Part shown: positions 1-6,347 of the stretch, piece after piece
How the letters are laid out: every line of letters begins with the position of its first letter
Position numbering within the stretch: position 1 is the stretch's first letter
From: a virus
IMG/VR virus record: IMGVR_UViG_3300031975_001512
Location: 1 to 26,112 of that record
DNA: 26,112 nucleotides
Strand: one strand, 5' to 3'
The notes under the pieces: generated by a model
Database searches by the model: none
What the model was told of the DNA's origin: nothing
Seen by the model: the letters and a program-made list of their open reading frames with translations, nothing else
Program-made: the position numbers and the translations under genes

Positions 1-520
1 CCTTTATTGTACCTTTTGGATTTTCATCCGTATACAAATCTGAATGACTTGGTGAGTTTCTATGTTGACCTTTCTTACGAGGTTTTCTTGGTGCTTCATT
101 CATCTTCAACTGTTTCATCTGTTTTTCTAAATCAAGAATCTTCAATTTTAATTTATAACTACCTGCCTGTGGTCCAAACCCACCATACTTTCTTATCAGT
201 TCCATTCTTTTTCTATGTAACCTACCATACTTTAATTGAGTTTTTCTACTAACTTCACCCAAAAGAGAATATCCTAAGATAGCCATAGCTTTATCTCTTG
301 GAGAATCCCCTCTAAATTTTTTAACTACTTTTTTGTAATTCTTCTTTATCATATCTGTAGCATCTTTAGTAGACCTTCCATATTGTGTGAGAATTTTATG
401 TATTGTTTTTATTTCAGACTCACTTATCTTTCCAATCATACCTAATGGTCTAGGACCACATCTCTTTCTGTATTGTGCTACTGTCTCGGTATTACTTTTA
501 TGTCCACAAGGTAAAGACAT
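1..520 (-). CDS. Basic hypothetical protein, 3' end beyond the left edge
   Basis: An open frame of 173 codons runs from an ATG at 518-520 to the left edge without a stop, so the C-terminus is missing. It begins MSLPCGHKSNTETVAQYRK. The protein is strongly basic throughout, with KK/RK clusters such as KKNYKKVVKKFR and, near the visible end, PRKPRKKGQ, and it has a predicted helical stretch rich in Lys and Leu at about residues 122-140 (KLKLKILDLEKQMKQLKM). Two cysteines and one histidine lie in the first 21 residues. The start is set by a one-base TAATG overlap with the preceding gene, which implies translational coupling. I do not recognise the family. The charge suggests nucleic-acid binding, but no named motif is visible, so that is only inference. 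Confidence 0.7.
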   Translation of the reverse strand, partial: MSLPCGHKSNTETVAQYRKRCGPRPLGMIGKISESEIKTIHKILTQYGRSTKDATDMIKKNYKKVVKKFRGDSPRDKAMAILGYSLLGEVSRKTQLKYGRLHRKRMELIRKYGGFGPQAGSYKLKLKILDLEKQMKQLKMNEAPRKPRKKGQHRNSPSHSDLYTDENPKGTIK

Positions 521-867
521 TACTTCTTTGGTTTGGTATTAACTCTTATTGGTTTCTTACCACCACCCTTTAAATCCGATGTTCCACCTCTACCAGCTTT
601 ATTTTGAGCTGCTCTTTTTCTACGAGTTGCTGATTGTTTTTGTTTTTTGGTCATACCAGCAGCTTTTGATTTAGGAACACATTTAGCATAGCCTCTTGTC
701 TTACCACTAGTTCCACAAGGGGGATGTTTACCGGATTTATCTTTCTTACCGATGTTAACCCATTTATCAGAAAACCATTTCTTTAGATTTTCATCTACAA
801 GGTTTCCACAATGAATACAGGTATTTTCATCAAAAATACTTTCTACTATTTTTCTTAAATGTATCAT
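520..867 (-). CDS. DUF5872-like small basic protein
   Basis: This 115-residue protein has a CxxC pair near the N-terminus (CIHCG, residues 17-21), then LKKWFSDKWVNIGKKDKSG, a PPCG...GYAKCVP segment, and MTKKQKQSATRRKRAAQ followed by a basic GKKPIRV tail. From memory this arrangement (KWVdi...PCGr...yPKCVP.sKA..MT..Q..SA.rRKR) is that of DUF5872 proteins, which occur in T4-like marine phages and some giant viruses and have no known function. The ATG at 865-867 has no AGGAG, and its leader 868-902 is very A+T-rich. The gene is coupled by TAATG to the next one. Because it is a phage-type family it shows that phage sequence continues on the far side of the pilin genes. The family name is by recall, not by search. 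Confidence 0.75.
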   Translation of the reverse strand: MIHLRKIVESIFDENTCIHCGNLVDENLKKWFSDKWVNIGKKDKSGKHPPCGTSGKTRGYAKCVPKSKAAGMTKKQKQSATRRKRAAQNKAGRGGTSDLKGGGKKPIRVNTKPKK

Positions 868-902
868 TACATCTATAAATATAATGTAAAAAAGAAAGGT
901 TA
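867..902 (-). other. Short A+T-rich leader with a 13-base element shared with the 8940-8992 gap
   Basis: This gap between the secreted helical protein and the DUF5872-like gene contains ATCTATAAATATA on the plus strand at 871-883. The identical 13-mer occurs at 8967-8979, in the only other gap of more than 30 bases apart from 3202-3398. On the transcribed minus strand it reads TATATTTATAGAT. No Shine-Dalgarno sequence precedes the ATG at 867. It could be a promoter element for the downstream gene, but neither strand gives a convincing -35/-10 pair. Confidence 0.25.
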
Positions 903-1301
903 CTAATTAGTATATATTTTGATTTTTTTATTTATGACAAGAATGTAATTATCTATTACATCTGTATTAACACCATCTTTTTCCATCTTTTCTTTTTTAG
1001 CTACCAACTTACCATAAACTTTCTGTAAATCTAAAAGAGATAATGACCTCATAGATTTTCTGTAATATAATTTATTGAGAGCTTCATCTTCAGCTTCTGC
1101 TCCACGAACTCCAGCAACTGTTGTTACTTTTTCTATTTCATAATCTTTGATAGTAACTTCTTTAATTTCTTCCCACACGGTGTTTTCCCACATGGCATCT
1201 AAATCAAGTTCTTCTGTTGTGTCTTGACTAAAACTCAAGTTTAACAGGATACTCAGCCAAAATAAAGTTAAGACTATCGTAGGTATAATACCAAATCTCA
1301 T
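903..1301 (-). CDS. Secreted helical protein at the end of the pilin operon
   Basis: The 132-residue product starts with a classic signal peptide: MRFG, a hydrophobic core (IIPTIVLTLFWLSILLNL) and a likely signal-peptidase I site after FS, with Gln26 as the first mature residue. The mature part is charged and predicted mainly helical (LDAMWENTVWEEIKEV, LLDLQKVYGKLVAKKEKME, VIDNYILVINKKIKIY), with no cysteine and no further membrane segment, so a periplasmic location is expected. The ATG at 1299-1301 follows AGGAG at 1310-1314 with an eight-base spacer, which fixes this start even though it lies 74 bases inside the preceding pilin gene in a different frame. I do not recognise the family. Position last in the pilin operon suggests a periplasmic partner or chaperone of the pilins; that is inference from context. 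Confidence 0.75.
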   Translation of the reverse strand: MRFGIIPTIVLTLFWLSILLNLSFSQDTTEELDLDAMWENTVWEEIKEVTIKDYEIEKVTTVAGVRGAEAEDEALNKLYYRKSMRSLSLLDLQKVYGKLVAKKEKMEKDGVNTDVIDNYILVINKKIKIYTN

Positions 1302-1647
1302 TATTCATTCTCCTATGATAAATTGCTGGATTACTTAAAATTGATGTTGAAAACTTCCATTCATTATCAAATAGAGGAAGTCCTTCTGTAAGTGTTATAT
1401 GATACCCACGAGTTCTTCCAACTAAAGTTAAGGGATTATATGGATATTTTTCAACTCCATTTACTTCTAATTCATACTCAGCGTATTCTTCTAAATCTTC
1501 CCAAAGTTTGTTAATAAACTTTTTTTCTAATTGTAGTAATTCAAGTTCTAATTTTTTTTGCATTTTAGGTAATTGAATTACAGAAAGTATTCCTATTATC
1601 ACAATTACCATAACTAATTCAATCATAGTAAAGCCTTTAGAATACAT
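1228..1647 (-). CDS. Prepilin-like protein (minor pilin/pseudopilin), fourth in the operon
   Basis: This 139-residue protein carries a very short leader MYSKG, then FTMIELVMVIVIIGILSVIQLPKM, which matches the type IV prepilin/pseudopilin signature: Gly at -1, Phe at +1 and the conserved Glu at +5 (Glu10), followed by a roughly 20-residue hydrophobic helix. The remainder has an acidic amphipathic helix (LLQLEKKFINKLWEDLEEYAEYELEV) and a short aromatic beta-type C-terminal domain with WYYTYDSLNF. Processing would need a prepilin peptidase, presumably the host's. The start overlaps the preceding stop (TAATG) and has GGAG at 1655-1658. Its last 74 bases also encode the start of the next gene. Pilin or pseudopilin nature is secure from the N-terminus; which subunit it mimics cannot be told. 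Confidence 0.88.
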   Translation of the reverse strand: MYSKGFTMIELVMVIVIIGILSVIQLPKMQKKLELELLQLEKKFINKLWEDLEEYAEYELEVNGVEKYPYNPLTLVGRTRGYHITLTEGLPLFDNEWKFSTSILSNPAIYHRRMNNEIWYYTYDSLNFILAEYPVKLEF

Positions 1648-2093
1648 TAAATTTCTCCGATTACTTCTTCTTCATAAGATGGGCTATCCTCATCCTCATC
1701 AACTATAATTATCATCCGTGTTACAAATCCTGTTTCAGATGTGTCGGATTGAACATAATAATAAAATGGATTGTTATTAGAATTCATCGGAAGATCACCA
1801 CTAAACAAATCATTAACCATTCTACCATCTGATAAAACTTGAGCCTTAAACTCTAAATCCATTTGATTGTTTTCTGGTTGTGGTGGAAAGTTAGGGTTTC
1901 CTATCATATGTCCTTCTTGCCAATACATCATAAATGTTGTTTTAACAATCTCCATATTTGTGATATTAGATTGTCTTTGTGTAGCAAGAACATTAGATTG
2001 GTAGGAGGGGATAGCGAATGACATCAATATCCCCACCAACGAAATAGAAACAACTAACTCTGCCAATGTGAAACCATCATTGGAGTTTCTCAT
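1647..2093 (-). CDS. Prepilin-like protein (minor pilin/pseudopilin), third in the operon
   Basis: The 148-residue product has leader MRNSNDG followed by FTLAELVVSISLVGILMSFAIPSY: Gly at -1, Phe at +1, Glu at +5 (Glu12) and a hydrophobic N-terminal helix, as in type IV pilins and type II secretion pseudopilins. The globular part contains FPPQPENNQMDLEFK and ends in a very acidic stretch (VDEDEDSPSYEEEVIGEI). The ATG is preceded by AGGAG with a six-base spacer. It lies 20 bases after the previous pilin gene and is coupled to the next by a one-base overlap. The N-terminal half (FTLAELVVSISLVGIL...IPSYQSNVLATQRQSNITNME) resembles PilE/FimT-type pilins in general layout. It is predicted to be an inner-membrane precursor that could enter a pilus or pseudopilus after cleavage. 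Confidence 0.88.
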   Translation of the reverse strand: MRNSNDGFTLAELVVSISLVGILMSFAIPSYQSNVLATQRQSNITNMEIVKTTFMMYWQEGHMIGNPNFPPQPENNQMDLEFKAQVLSDGRMVNDLFSGDLPMNSNNNPFYYYVQSDTSETGFVTRMIIIVDEDEDSPSYEEEVIGEI

Positions 2094-2113
2094 TGGGTTC
2101 TCCTTTTTATTTA

Positions 2114-2554
2114 TTAAAGAGCTACCCTTTCACCGATTGAACCGATAGCAGCATTATCTCCATCTTGAACACCTTTATCATAGTCCCAAGCCCAACGAGT
2201 ATTATCATTTCTCTGATGGGTAATCTGTAATGTTACTAAGTTATATGTCCATTCTCCATCTGTATCTGCATCATCTGTATCAGTAGCATCATATCCAGCA
2301 GGAGTTTCTTCTAATCCATCAAATGGATGATCTGGCCATACCTTACGACCTTCTGAAAATAGTTGTTCCATAGCATAGTTGGATAGTCCAGCTTGTATAC
2401 TAGCGATTATAGCATCTTCAGCAGCTTCTTCAGCTTTTGTTACAGTTCCAAGATATCTTGGTACAGCAACTGCTGATAAAATACCTAAAATTATTGTTAC
2501 CATTATTAGTTCAATTAATGTGAACCCTTTGTTGTCTTTTATTGTGTTAAACAT
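2114..2554 (-). CDS. GspG/PilA-like prepilin, second in the operon
   Basis: This 146-residue protein shows the strongest classical signature of the four: leader MFNTIKDNKG, then FTLIELIMVTIILGILSAVAVPRY with Gly at -1, Phe at +1 and Glu at +5 (Glu15), and a helix continuing through KAEEAAEDAIIASIQAGLSNYA. The C-terminal part has a dense acidic run (DATDTDDADTDG) that could bind calcium, as is known for GspG-type pseudopilins, though I cannot identify the actual ligands. A GDN.A..GSIGERVAL tail closes the protein. The start has AAGGAG upstream (GTAAGGAGAACAGAA-ATG). It is 11 bases after the first pilin gene. This is the best candidate for a major pilin or pseudopilin subunit. Confidence 0.9.
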   Translation of the reverse strand: MFNTIKDNKGFTLIELIMVTIILGILSAVAVPRYLGTVTKAEEAAEDAIIASIQAGLSNYAMEQLFSEGRKVWPDHPFDGLEETPAGYDATDTDDADTDGEWTYNLVTLQITHQRNDNTRWAWDYDKGVQDGDNAAIGSIGERVAL

Positions 2555-2565
2555 TTCTGTTCTCC

Positions 2566-3201
2566 TTACGGTTGTAGTTTCTTTTTAAAGTTAGCAGGTG
2601 ATTCTAAATCAGCCACATAAAGTATTGGTGAATAAGAGGATTGTCCACTTCCACCACCAGCGATTACTGTGTAAATATAGTGTCCATCCTGAAAAGGTGA
2701 TTTAACAGCGTTTCCACCAAATTCATTTAGGAACTCTTCTGCTCCTACGGTTTCGCTGAAAGAACCATCATCATCTGGATCTTCAGCAGTATTGACACTA
2801 GCACCCGTTGGCATTGGATTAGCAGGATTTTGTGTTCCAAATATAGAAGCCCATTTAGATGCTTCTGCACTTTCAAATGTTTGGAATACATTAAGTCCAG
2901 CTACCACAGAACTTTCATCTTGGTATCCACCACCATCAGGAACAGATTCATTGTATTTAACTTGACCTGGAAATCTTCCACGACCTTCACTAGTTACTTT
3001 TTCATTATAAAAGTTATTAGCAGATTTTACAATCTTATCAATATCAGCTAATGTCTTTTTTTCTTTAGCACCCTCTCCTACGCCAGAGAACTTAGGTGCA
3101 GCAGTAGTAGCGAGTGTCGCCATCATCGCTGTTGTTACAGCGAATTCAGCGAGTGACTGACCACTTCTACCTTTTAATTTTTTTCTTAGCTTTTGAAACA
3201 T
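2566..3201 (-). CDS. Atypical long-leader prepilin-like protein, first gene of the operon
   Basis: The 211-residue product has a 14-residue, strongly basic leader (MFQKLRKKLKGRSG) followed by QSLAEFAVTTAMMATLATTAAPKFSG. Gly at -1 and Glu at +5 (Glu19) are kept, but +1 is Gln and the helix is rich in Ala, Thr and Met, unlike the GFTLIEL type of its neighbours. Further on, NNFYNEKVTSEGRGRFPGQ and KSPFQDGHYIYTVIAGGGS followed by SPILYVADLE look like the ordering seen in pseudopilin globular domains (RYP..., DPW...YIY..). It is preceded by AGGAG at 3209-3213 (seven-base spacer) and a promoter at 3246-3273. It is the largest of the four and the first translated, so it may be the main structural subunit. 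Pilin identity is probable rather than certain. Confidence 0.82.
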   Translation of the reverse strand: MFQKLRKKLKGRSGQSLAEFAVTTAMMATLATTAAPKFSGVGEGAKEKKTLADIDKIVKSANNFYNEKVTSEGRGRFPGQVKYNESVPDGGGYQDESSVVAGLNVFQTFESAEASKWASIFGTQNPANPMPTGASVNTAEDPDDDGSFSETVGAEEFLNEFGGNAVKSPFQDGHYIYTVIAGGGSGQSSYSPILYVADLESPANFKKKLQP

Positions 3202-3245
3202 TTTGTTTCTCCTATGTTAGTTGTTCTACACTATATAATACAAAA

Positions 3246-3273
3246 ACTATACCAAAGTACCTGTTTTTTACAA
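3246..3273 (-). promoter_or_regulatory. Sigma70-like extended -10 promoter for the pilin operon
   Basis: On the minus strand TTGTAA (3268-3273) is separated by 16 bases from TATAGT (3246-3251). The -10 box is preceded by TGG, giving an extended -10 element (TG-N-TATAGT). It lies after the terminator of the upstream block and about 45 bases before the first pilin start, so the untranslated leader would be roughly 40 bases with an AGGAG near its end. Spacing and position are good; the -35 matches only part of TTGACA. Assigned by eye. Confidence 0.5.
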
Positions 3274-3321
3274 GTTTTTTTTAATTATTTTTTTAGTATT
3301 GATATTGTTGAGGTTAGGGGT

Positions 3322-3356
3322 ATAAATAAAAAAACCCCACTATGTGTGAGGTTTTT
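3322..3356 (-). terminator. Intrinsic terminator ending the tail/envelope transcript
   Basis: Read on the minus strand, AAAAACCTCAC, loop ACATA, then GTGGGGTTTTTTT form a hairpin. The arms are 3346-3356 and 3330-3340, fully paired on this strand with one G-U pair, and are followed by a T-rich run into TTTATTTATA. On the plus strand the same position is a C/A mismatch and the U-run is weaker, so the terminator is built for minus-strand transcription. It closes the long transcript that includes the tail and envelope genes and isolates the pilin operon. Confidence 0.85.
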
Positions 3357-3358
3357 AA

Positions 3359-3400
3359 AATGATACAACTGTATTTATTTGTTACAAATTATGTATCATT
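3359..3400 (-). other. Nested inverted repeat between the thioredoxin-like gene and the terminator
   Basis: A perfect 9-base inverted repeat, AATGATACA (3359-3367) and TGTATCATT (3392-3400), surrounds a 24-base loop. Inside the loop is a second dyad, ATTTGT-T-ACAAAT (3377-3389). The outer right arm overlaps the stop codon of the thioredoxin-like gene at 3399-3401. It may be a 3' mRNA-stabilising stem next to the terminator, or a protein-binding dyad; the sequence alone does not decide. Confidence 0.55.
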
Positions 3401-3773
3401 AAAATACATCTTCTGCTAATACATCATCTATAGCACTTTTTATTTCTTTATTACTGGCATCTATCTCACCATCCATATCACCTTTCCAAGTTTCTTTCTT
3501 AGAACCATCATAGAAAAGAGCCATAGATGGAAAGTTTCTAAATCTAAGTTTCTTTATTACTTTTGGTGCTTCTTCACTTTTAACATAAAGTATTTTACAA
3601 TCTTGATATCCCTTTACACCCTTTATAAGTGATTCATCAAAATCAGCGTCTTGCCATTCTGATGTAAATATGGCTACGACTATACCACCATTAATTTTTT
3701 CTTTAAAGTTCTTATCATTTATTTGTCCGTATGACACAGACAAAAATAATAATAAAGTAAATATAAATCTCAT
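3399..3773 (-). CDS. Secreted thioredoxin-fold protein without a CXXC motif
   Basis: The 124-residue protein has a signal peptide (MRFIFTLLLFLSVSYG, mature start at Gln17). The rest follows the thioredoxin layout: helix NFKEKINGG, strand IVVAIFTSEW, a helix where the active site would be, strand KILYVKSEEAP, the conserved RNFPSMALFYDG segment with the cis-proline (Pro82), and a C-terminal helix. Where thioredoxins have WCGPC this protein has EWQDADFD, so both catalytic cysteines are absent. The only cysteine is Cys59. It should therefore act in the periplasm as a binding or folding module, not as a disulfide reductase/oxidase. AGGAG precedes the ATG. It is last before the terminator. The fold call rests on pattern and the FPS motif, not on a search. 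Confidence 0.72.
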   Translation of the reverse strand: MRFIFTLLLFLSVSYGQINDKNFKEKINGGIVVAIFTSEWQDADFDESLIKGVKGYQDCKILYVKSEEAPKVIKKLRFRNFPSMALFYDGSKKETWKGDMDGEIDASNKEIKSAIDDVLAEDVF

Positions 3774-3782
3774 AAGTAACTC

Positions 3783-4454
3783 CTATTTGTCTTTCTTCCT
3801 TCGTTCTAGGTCTTTAATATCCGATCTTAATTCTTTTATAAGTTCTTCATACTCATCTATTATTTCATAAACGGCATCCATATCTTCTTGTAGTCCACCT
3901 ACTTGGTTTTTATATTGTTCATAAGAACGAGGCCAGTTATGACCATCAGGTTTAGATGGATATTCATCTGTAAAAATTGATTCTACATTTATTTCAGGTA
4001 GTTGTTTTGCTTCTTCTATTTCTTGTAATAACATATAATAACCACCGACAGCAGTAGATATAAGAGTTATCAACCCTACTATGGTTTGAACCGACATTGA
4101 GAACTTAGTTCCCATAACCTTTTCTTCCGATAACTCAACCGGTTCTTCCTTTACAGGTTCGGGTTCAACTATGGGTTGCGGTGTTGGTTGTTCTGTTGGT
4201 GTTGGTGTTGGATTCACAATAGGTTCATTGTGTATCTCTTGATGTTTTTCTATATGTTGTTTTGTTTTTTCCTTTTGTCCGTTTAATAGCGCATCGGTGA
4301 TATCATCTAAAGTACACACACCCATATCAACTAGGATTTCGCCAATGGTTTTTTTATCACCCTTAACTTGGCGTCCTAAAGCCTTACTTAACTGGCGTTT
4401 TGTAATGACATCAGCATCACATAAAAGCTGACCTAATTTGATATCACCGTTCAC
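3783..4454 (-). CDS. Membrane-anchored MshEN-like (type II secretion/pilus ATPase N-domain) protein
   Basis: Residues 5-60 of this 223-residue protein (KLGQLLCDADVITKRQLSKA...KTIGEILVDMGVCTLDDITDAL) show the tandem LGxxL...T...L..AL..Q pattern of MshEN/GspE N-terminal domains, which in MshE-type ATPases bind cyclic di-GMP. Several consensus positions differ: Arg is replaced by Lys and Thr, one Gly by Asp17, and the second motif has an extra residue before Gln, so ligand binding is doubtful. A Pro/Thr-rich linker (about 78-107) leads to one membrane segment (about 120-143), then a region ending in a charged coiled coil (about 180-220). No ATPase domain is present. The expected topology is N-terminus in the cytoplasm and coiled coil in the periplasm. 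The start is GTG (CAC at 4452-4454) with AGGAA upstream. Confidence 0.75.
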   Translation of the reverse strand: MNGDIKLGQLLCDADVITKRQLSKALGRQVKGDKKTIGEILVDMGVCTLDDITDALLNGQKEKTKQHIEKHQEIHNEPIVNPTPTPTEQPTPQPIVEPEPVKEEPVELSEEKVMGTKFSMSVQTIVGLITLISTAVGGYYMLLQEIEEAKQLPEINVESIFTDEYPSKPDGHNWPRSYEQYKNQVGGLQEDMDAVYEIIDEYEELIKELRSDIKDLERRKKDK

Positions 4455-4753: not shown

Positions 4754-6046
4754 CTAAAATCCCATAAATTGATAGTTAAGTCCTAATTTTAAATCATAAG
4801 CAGGTCTTTCCCAATAATACAGATATCTACCTTCGGCAAACACACCTAAATTATCTTTTACCTTTACACCAAATATACCACCCATATCATAATCATTCCA
4901 ATCATGCCACATTGGTTTCATATACATAAATTTATGAGCAGGCATACCTTTTTCTAAATGTTCTTGGTAATGAGAAGCATTATGATAAGCATGTTTAGAG
5001 TGTCCATAATGAACTGGTAACCAGTTACCCCAAGCATGTATCCACCAATTCTCACCATAGTGATAAAAGTCAACACCTAATACCAGAGATGTTTCACTTT
5101 GGTATCCTAAGTTTTTCTTTACATCACCTATGTAATTTTCTAACATATTTGGAAAATGGTATAAGAAATATTCTCTATCTGTATAAGCAAATATCTTACC
5201 TTGCTCATCTCTCCATAACCAATCATGTCCCCAATACTGACCATCACCATTCCAAAAAGGACCATCACCTTCTATTAGTCTAAGTTCACCTGTTTCAGGA
5301 TCTACTTCATAAAGGTCTTGTTTAATCCAATTTCCATCTTCATCTTGCATTGTCGGGTCATACCATCTATTATCATCTATACCAAAAGCATCTTCAGCAA
5401 AGTTCCACCATTGACCTTTATACCAAGTAGTGTCAAGAACCATAGCATCAAATCCATATACTGGATGTTGTCTATGTTTTACACCAACAGAAAAATGTAA
5501 TTTGTTTCCTAATGCTTCAGGTGTAAGGTGTAATCTAATATCACCTTGTCCATATCTAATATCCTCTAAACCTAATTCTGACCAACCAACTTTAGCCATA
5601 ACCCAATTACCAATATATCTTACCCAATATTCTTGGTTAATATAGTCATTACCCCATTGTCTACCCTCTGACCATTTGATTAGATATTCCCAACCTTTAA
5701 CAGGTCCGAATGTAGCACTTTCGTTAGCATTGTGTTCTGAACCATCATACCAAGTTCCACCTTTACCAGCAGACTTAACACCTCGCTTTGGTTCATACTG
5801 AAATCTACCAATCTTACGAAGCCCAAATGATGATTGGAAATCAGGTTTTAGTTCTCTTTCGGTTCTTTCAACTTCAAGAGCTCCTGTTGATAAACCACCG
5901 ACAATAGCAAATCTATCATCTTGAAATCTTGGTGCATTTAAACTAAAACTAGCATATGCTGTAGAATACTTGAAAAACTTTAGTATTTCATTTTCAGCAA
6001 ACAAAGATGAAGTTAGTAATAAACCTACTATAATTTTCTTTAACAT
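4754..6046 (-). CDS. Phage-encoded outer-membrane beta-barrel candidate
   Basis: The 430-residue product has a signal peptide (MLKKIIVGLLLTSSLFA, cleavage before Glu) and no other hydrophobic helix. The body alternates polar and aromatic residues and is unusually rich in Trp, Tyr and His (EYLIKWSEGRQWGNDYINQEYWVRYIGNWVMAKVGW is typical in pattern). The last strand, YDLKLGLNYQFMGF, ends in Phe, as do substrates of the BAM complex. These are the marks of an outer-membrane barrel. The family is not recognised; I have an impression that barrel genes of this sort recur in marine myoviruses. Plausible roles are receptor masking or superinfection exclusion, or nutrient uptake during infection. AGGAG precedes the ATG, and the stop overlaps the next gene's ribosome binding site. 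Confidence 0.72.
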   Translation of the reverse strand: MLKKIIVGLLLTSSLFAENEILKFFKYSTAYASFSLNAPRFQDDRFAIVGGLSTGALEVERTERELKPDFQSSFGLRKIGRFQYEPKRGVKSAGKGGTWYDGSEHNANESATFGPVKGWEYLIKWSEGRQWGNDYINQEYWVRYIGNWVMAKVGWSELGLEDIRYGQGDIRLHLTPEALGNKLHFSVGVKHRQHPVYGFDAMVLDTTWYKGQWWNFAEDAFGIDDNRWYDPTMQDEDGNWIKQDLYEVDPETGELRLIEGDGPFWNGDGQYWGHDWLWRDEQGKIFAYTDREYFLYHFPNMLENYIGDVKKNLGYQSETSLVLGVDFYHYGENWWIHAWGNWLPVHYGHSKHAYHNASHYQEHLEKGMPAHKFMYMKPMWHDWNDYDMGGIFGVKVKDNLGVFAEGRYLYYWERPAYDLKLGLNYQFMGF

Positions 6047-6056
6047 CTGTTTTCTC

Positions 6057-6347
6057 CTATATCATTATCCAGGCAGCTGCTCCAATCTCTACTATTAAAT
6101 CAGCAGCAGTATTATATGCCCATTTCTTCTTACTACCATAGACACGCCAATCCTCTATGATATATTCAAATATTTCCCAAGCTATTCCTATAATCACCAC
6201 CCACATTACACACCAAAAATCAGTTTGACCTAACCATTCTGCTATCTTTGCAATAAAGATACCAGCTGCTAGATGATATGATGTCCAATGGTCTAGTTGA
6301 CCGGTTGATAATTGCCAATTTACAAATTTTGATAATGGGCTGTTCAT
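6057..6347 (-). CDS. Small three-helix membrane protein (holin candidate)
   Basis: This 96-residue protein has hydrophobic segments at about residues 24-40, 44-64 and 77-96, separated by short loops, with a basic loop RVYGSKKK between the second and third. The pattern WEIFEYIIEDW...NTAADLIVEIGAAAW is reminiscent of VanZ/DUF2238-type membrane proteins. Its size, three helices and place after the tail genes also fit a class I holin, but no endolysin or spanin pair is adjacent to confirm that. TATAGGAGAAATATT-ATG gives a strong ribosome binding site. Membrane location is well supported; function is not. Confidence 0.65.
   Translation of the reverse strand: MNSPLSKFVNWQLSTGQLDHWTSYHLAAGIFIAKIAEWLGQTDFWCVMWVVIIGIAWEIFEYIIEDWRVYGSKKKWAYNTAADLIVEIGAAAWIMI

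Follow-up and report, generated by a model that had tools for sequence, protein, structure and literature searches.

A prepilin cassette with which a marine phage lineage may rebuild the pili of SAR406 bacteria

The window analyzed computationally in the current study, i.e., the complete stretch of 26,112 nucleotides comprising positions 1 to 26,112 of the IMG/VR virus record IMGVR_UViG_3300031975_001512, carries four adjacent prepilin genes within the genome of a phage. We consider it likely that these genes belong to a host-derived, moron-like set of pilus substrates that is assembled by the machinery of the host, and our analysis leans, with due caution, toward a widespread marine phage lineage that rebuilds the pili of SAR406 with virus-encoded pilins under a copied host sigma-54 switch, resulting in virus-made pili on infected cells. 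What can be read directly from the sequences are the cleavage sites, the gene order, the insertion at an intact junction, the shared promoter and enhancer-like sites, the lack of assembly machinery in the phage records, and purifying selection. The source is a single metagenomic record, no end repeats were found in the 26,112-base window, and the phage group comprises uncultured marine tailed phages whose hosts are probably SAR406 (Marinimicrobia). If correct, this interpretation exemplifies a new strategy by which a virus reshapes the exterior of the cell it infects, namely by supplying both subunits and host regulatory wiring, and it connects a group of uncultured phages with their likely hosts, members of an ocean phylum that is abundant and itself uncultured.

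Four different prepilins encoded in a phage genome

The genes A (positions 2566 to 3201; 211 aa; cleavage site GRSG/QSLAEF), B (2114 to 2554; 146 aa; NKG/FTLIEL), C (1647 to 2093; 148 aa; NDG/FTLAEL), and D (1228 to 1647; 139 aa; SKG/FTMIEL) are all located on the minus strand and encode prepilins, that of gene B being GspG-like. As described in the initial annotation, each of the four adjacent genes specifies a Gly at position -1, a Glu at position +5, and a hydrophobic N-terminal helix and is preceded by an AGGAG/GGAGA Shine-Dalgarno sequence; among all ORFs of the window, only A to D fit the prepilin pattern. The curated cut-off of the Pfam model N_methyl (21.2 bits) was exceeded by B, C, and D with 31.4, 26, and 26 bits (E-values of 1.2e-7, 6.2e-6, and 6.3e-6), and so was that of NCBIfam TIGR02532. 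Gene A had no family-model match in the Pfam/NCBIfam profile search and does not show the N_methyl feature. The four top-ranking structural hits of the AlphaFold model of A (pLDDT 76.7) were XcpV/XcpW, the enterotoxigenic Escherichia coli (ETEC) type IVb pilus, the Xcp pseudopilus, and TcpB, with modest Z-scores spanning 5.6 to 2.0 (5.6, 4.9, and 3.8 for the first three; all below 8), which favors a pilin-type fold of A but falls short of proof. Taken together, A to D are confirmed, as far as sequence allows, as four different predicted prepilins with intact cleavage sites. They resemble GspG and type IVa pilins in the cleavage/methylation segment and in the match of B to TIGR01710 (GspG; 1.4e-10), but differ in that this match reaches 41.3 bits versus a cut-off of 88.85, so that B does not qualify as a GspG equivalog, and in the absence of a family model for A.

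Probable origin of the cassette from a SAR406 pilus cluster

The alignment of A, used to scan 84,980 species genomes, retrieved 22 loci, most of which are titled Neomarinimicrobiota or Marinimicrobia (SAR406) and a few otherwise. In the isolate AM-382-M06 (L103), a response regulator, an A24 prepilin peptidase, PilB with an MshEN domain, a sigma-54 activator, and PilC are followed by the pilins A, B, C, and D, two further minor pilins, and more genes including a PilQ-like secretin. The phage cassette resembles this SAR406 pilus cluster in its pilin order A-B-C-D, the promoter type, the enhancer-like sites, and the sequence of A (81% identity), but the host has a whole machine and further minor pilins, whereas the phage has four pilins and an additional gene, E. 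In the phylogenetic tree, the A gene of the window groups with that of L103 (support of 82; next fork, 94), and the topology forces at least two changes between virus and host. The proposal that one of the four subunits serves as the major pilin and the others as minor ones is partly supported: it is backed by the positional match of the phage genes to A-B-C-D of the host, and against it stand the weak similarity of D to host D and the absence of the host's last minor (tip) pilins from the phage cassette.

Gene E (903 to 1301, minus strand), the last gene of the cassette, starts inside D and encodes a protein with a signal-like N-terminal segment. Among the 15 genomes with gene A, 10 also have a homologue of E, located at another locus, and 27 columns of the E alignment are invariant across virus and host; the structure model is poor (pLDDT 62.7). 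Since the phage has united the pilins and E from two host loci, E is suggested to work together with the pilins, and we propose it as a pilus accessory protein. If so, E is predicted to be an unrecognized partner of the SAR406 pilus.

From the homology of both the pilins and E, we infer that the host belongs to SAR406 (Neomarinimicrobiota); the presence of A-type genes in 21 of 244 Neomarinimicrobiota genomes counts against this assignment. Retractile pili are plausible, as 9 of the 14 host genomes have PilT-family genes that score above the cut-off. On the host chromosomes, long tandem prepilin arrays were also observed (L116:9956-17626 and L111:5531-13510), in which most A-type copies lie behind their own sigma-54-type promoter. 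A further locus, L123, titled Alphaproteobacteria MAG SZUA-1021, resembles a phage contig with gene A, and its other genes match viral loci; it has probably been wrongly binned.

Proposed dependence on the assembly machinery of the host

Neither an A24 peptidase, a T2SSF platform protein, nor a secretin was found in the 25 viral records tested, some of which are fragments, and no T2SSE ATPase exceeded the cut-off in the same set. Matches to T2SSE below the cut-off occurred in 11 viral records as short stretches in frames of 385 to 419 aa, which probably reflect the ATP-binding motifs of other ATPases. The absence was uniform, although in fragmentary records it falls short of proof. The full gene set of a type IV pilus or a type II secretion apparatus was thus not found in the 25 phage records, and a self-sufficient new filament, one of the functions initially envisaged, was rejected as unlikely for lack of peptidase, ATPase, platform, and secretin in these records.

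According to our preferred scenario, ancestors of the phage would have acquired the first four pilin genes of the SAR406 pilus cluster together with the enhancer-like sites and the promoter, and gene E, which resides elsewhere in the hosts, would have been joined to them. During infection, the activator of the host and RNA polymerase with sigma-54 would transcribe the cassette, and a PilD-type host peptidase would trim the phage subunits. Host PilB, PilC, and secretin could then assemble these subunits, either by themselves or together with the pilins of the host, on the tip complex of the host, for which the phage has no genes. The infected cell would finally display pili that consist partly or wholly of phage-encoded subunits.

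Possible benefits for the phage

Two payoffs of such pili are possible, namely superinfection exclusion via a changed receptor surface and a continued pilus supply as host expression falls. Exclusion is slightly favored over maintenance for a lytic phage, which would gain by closing the cell to rivals, although the data are compatible with both; it may be regarded as a tentative explanation, well short of an established one: phage pilins would alter or poison the filament, and pilus-binding phages would fail to adsorb. Pili are common phage receptors, and the disabling of pili by Tip, Aqs1, or Zip of Pseudomonas phages offers a precedent for phages acting on pili (PMC11656802; PMC11436027). 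Exclusion is also in line with the observation that the minor-to-major pilin ratio alters pilus dynamics (PMC13249403) and with the PilB-type MshEN domain encoded by the neighboring gene M. However, the known excluders are single small inhibitors, whereas four subunits with intact assembly helices appear to be made for assembly.

The comparison of viral and host alleles bears on both payoffs. For mature residues 1 to 50 of A, the identity amounts to 90% between virus and host and 94% among hosts, and for the globular part, the values are 56% and 57%, respectively. The globular part of viral A hence diverges no more than host alleles do, and there is no special support for a receptor change. 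This is consistent with maintenance, in which phage-supplied subunits keep the host pili working for uptake or attachment and leave the receptor unchanged, analogous to cyanophages, which supply photosystem proteins. Viral A is no further from host A than the host alleles are from each other, in both the helix and the globular part, selection is purifying rather than diversifying, and the host-type regulation has been retained. The restriction of the cassette to the first pilins, with the tip pilins missing, speaks against maintenance, which we regard as conceivable but rather doubtful.

Purifying selection is apparent from dN/dS values of 0.03 to 0.47 within viral pairs for A to E, which indicate that all five genes are maintained; based on whole-gene dN/dS, no diversifying selection on the pilins was seen.

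A host-like sigma-54-type promoter upstream of gene A

Sigma-54 promoters consist of a -24/-12 element and upstream enhancer sites. The corresponding layout (TGG-N10-TTG with upstream enhancer sites) precedes gene A on the minus strand, where the sigma-54-type promoter TGGTATAGTTTTTGTA (3239 to 3254) is the sole match to TGGYAYRNNNNTTGYW within the window (0.09 expected). Three enhancer-like sites of the TGTNACA type, i.e., TGATACA (3392 to 3398), TGTAACA (3380 to 3386), and TGTATCA (3361 to 3367), are located upstream on the same strand, and a terminator hairpin with an 11-pair stem and a T run (3330 to 3356, minus strand) lies between these sites and the promoter. The terminator would shield the pilin operon from read-through of the tail genes.

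This arrangement is widespread. Of the 77 viral loci, 65 have the strict promoter motif ahead of gene A, with about 0.01 per locus expected by chance, and the motif is rarely seen elsewhere in the same loci; a slightly looser pattern is present in 72. No sigma-54-type site was found in L005, L013, L022, L023, L071, and L080, which counts against our interpretation, and these cassettes may use another promoter. In 59 viral loci, TGTNACA-type sites located 100 to 175 nt upstream of the -24 element reach a density of 2.64 per 300 nt versus a background of 0.22, and 56 of the 59 have at least two of them. A hairpin with a T run occupies the terminator position in 55 of 70 viral loci, invariably with an enhancer-like site upstream of the hairpin. 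In the genome contigs, most A-type genes (33 of 39) are preceded by the same promoter type, and the host density of TGTNACA-type sites is 1.78 per 300 nt (background, 0.24).

The viral -12 element mostly reads TTGT, whereas TTGC is classical, which counts against sigma-54. Moreover, CTATATAGG downstream of the -24/-12 element is conserved among viruses and overlaps a weak sigma-70-like match in the window, as expected if the conserved upstream motif were a phage-specific or sigma-70-like promoter and its assignment to sigma-54 wrong. However, in contrast to TGG and TTG, which are retained, the sigma-70-like -10 sequence TATAGT of the window usually reads TACAGT in other loci, and sigma-70-like matches are no more common than expected by chance. 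The host pilin promoters show equal spacing, and the enhancer-like sites are common to virus and host, so that a different promoter type is improbable, and we adhere to the sigma-54-type promoter.

A discrete insert with the anatomy of a moron

The whole inserted cassette extends from about 868 to 3398 on the minus strand (approximately 2.5 kb) and is located between gene T (3399 to 3773, minus strand) at the left border and gene F (520 to 867, minus strand) at the right border. Gene T encodes a secreted thioredoxin-like protein (PF00085, 7.9e-4, below the cut-off), and gene F is DUF5872-like (PF19197, 7.5e-4, below the cut-off; phrog_23735, 3.6e-18). The extent originally assigned (1228 to 3201) correctly covered the four prepilin genes but was too small, as it omitted gene E, the promoter, the terminator, and the enhancer-like sites.

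Sister phages were retrieved by a search with the neighboring O protein. Three of them (L140, L141, and L156) are free of the cassette; the order tail genes-O-M-T-F-G is kept, the pilins are absent, and the stop codon of T directly overlaps the start codon of F (TAATG), without a promoter or enhancer-like site in between. This overlap identifies the cassette as a discrete insert of about 2.5 kb and excludes a chimera. Phage morons, or auxiliary genes, have their own promoter and terminator, leave an intact junction, and occur in only some sister phages. The cassette likewise carries its own terminator and promoter, the three sisters show the junction undisturbed, and its anatomy fits that of a moron. 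What sets it apart from typical morons is its cargo, a pilin operon under an enhancer and promoter arrangement of the host's sigma-54 type.

Relatives of gene A were found on at least 86 IMG/VR contigs, those of B in 21 viral loci, and those of D and E in 74 and 72 of the fetched viral loci, respectively. The recurring arrangements of the fetched loci are A-B-C-D-E, A-B-B'-D-x-E, and A-D-x-E, and gene C has a conserved position after B within the first of them. The flanking genes vary widely between phages carrying the cassette, which indicates that it moves as a unit. The wide variation of the flanks and the sisters without pilins also argue against a role of A to D as virion or lysis-related proteins, i.e., as structural phage parts, and so do the prepilin leaders and the own sigma-54-type promoter behind a terminator; despite the location next to the tail module in the window, such a role is very improbable.

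The flanks of the window recur on the independent contigs L004, L007, L009, and L069, which supports the original assignment of the cassette to a genuine phage genome. The terminase large subunit exceeded the cut-off in 6 of the 25 viral records tested, with lengths of 77 to 132 kb, and the homologues are accordingly not confined to bacterial chromosomes but also reside on terminase-bearing viral contigs. That the contig is a chimera of the assembly or contaminated with bacterial DNA was rejected as practically negligible: apart from the origin from a single metagenomic record, nothing was found in favor of it, and on co-linear independent contigs, the longest of about 132 kb, the cassette is likewise flanked by phage genes on either side.

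The viral cassettes also contain genes that differ from the window. Gene x, which encodes a membrane-anchored protein of 141 to 147 aa, is located between D and E in many of them (e.g., L025:12042-12467, L059:12037-12462, and L070:12057-12500) and is absent from the window. In another case (L031:12324-12647), a secreted protein that resembles the TonB C terminus by eye is encoded directly after the cassette.

Comparison with known phage genes

To our knowledge, phages that attack type IV pili do so by switching them off. The Tip, Aqs1, Zip, and Pf4 proteins of Pseudomonas phages also target the host type IV pilus (PMC11656802; PMC11436027), but they inhibit the motor or its partners, whereas the present genes encode pilus subunits. 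Single prepilin-like phage genes do exist: the Vibrio phages 033B and GH32 have one such gene with a GspG-like N terminus, as in B, but with a single match per record that covers 21% of B and no cassette seen. Gene A had no match among 50,697 phage records, and no report of phage-borne pilin sets was found in the open-access papers searched. The set is as unusual for a phage as was originally assumed: the parts and the phage carriage of host genes are known, and the combination appears to be new.

Neighboring genes M and O

MshEN is a regulatory domain of PilB-type ATPases. Gene M (3783 to 4454, minus strand) encodes an MshEN domain of the cyclic di-GMP-binding type, a proline-rich linker, one membrane helix, and a coiled coil, and matches NF053729 above the cut-off (6.3e-11). 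Its nearest host matches are frames of 587 and 598 aa, which gave hits to the PilT/PilB ATPase family as well. The M protein might regulate the motor PilB or act as a decoy of it, and any connection with the pilins is guesswork.

Gene O (4754 to 6046, minus strand) encodes a protein of 430 aa with a signal-like N terminus and no family match; it is present in 23 viral loci retrieved with O as the query. Since none of 245 Neomarinimicrobiota genomes contained a match, O was dropped as a marker of the host link. The T-M-O group accompanies the cassette in many loci and occurs without it in others. Further along the window (6057 to 6347, minus strand), a membrane protein of 96 aa is encoded whose residues 20 to 96 show a weak match, below the cut-off, to heliorhodopsin.
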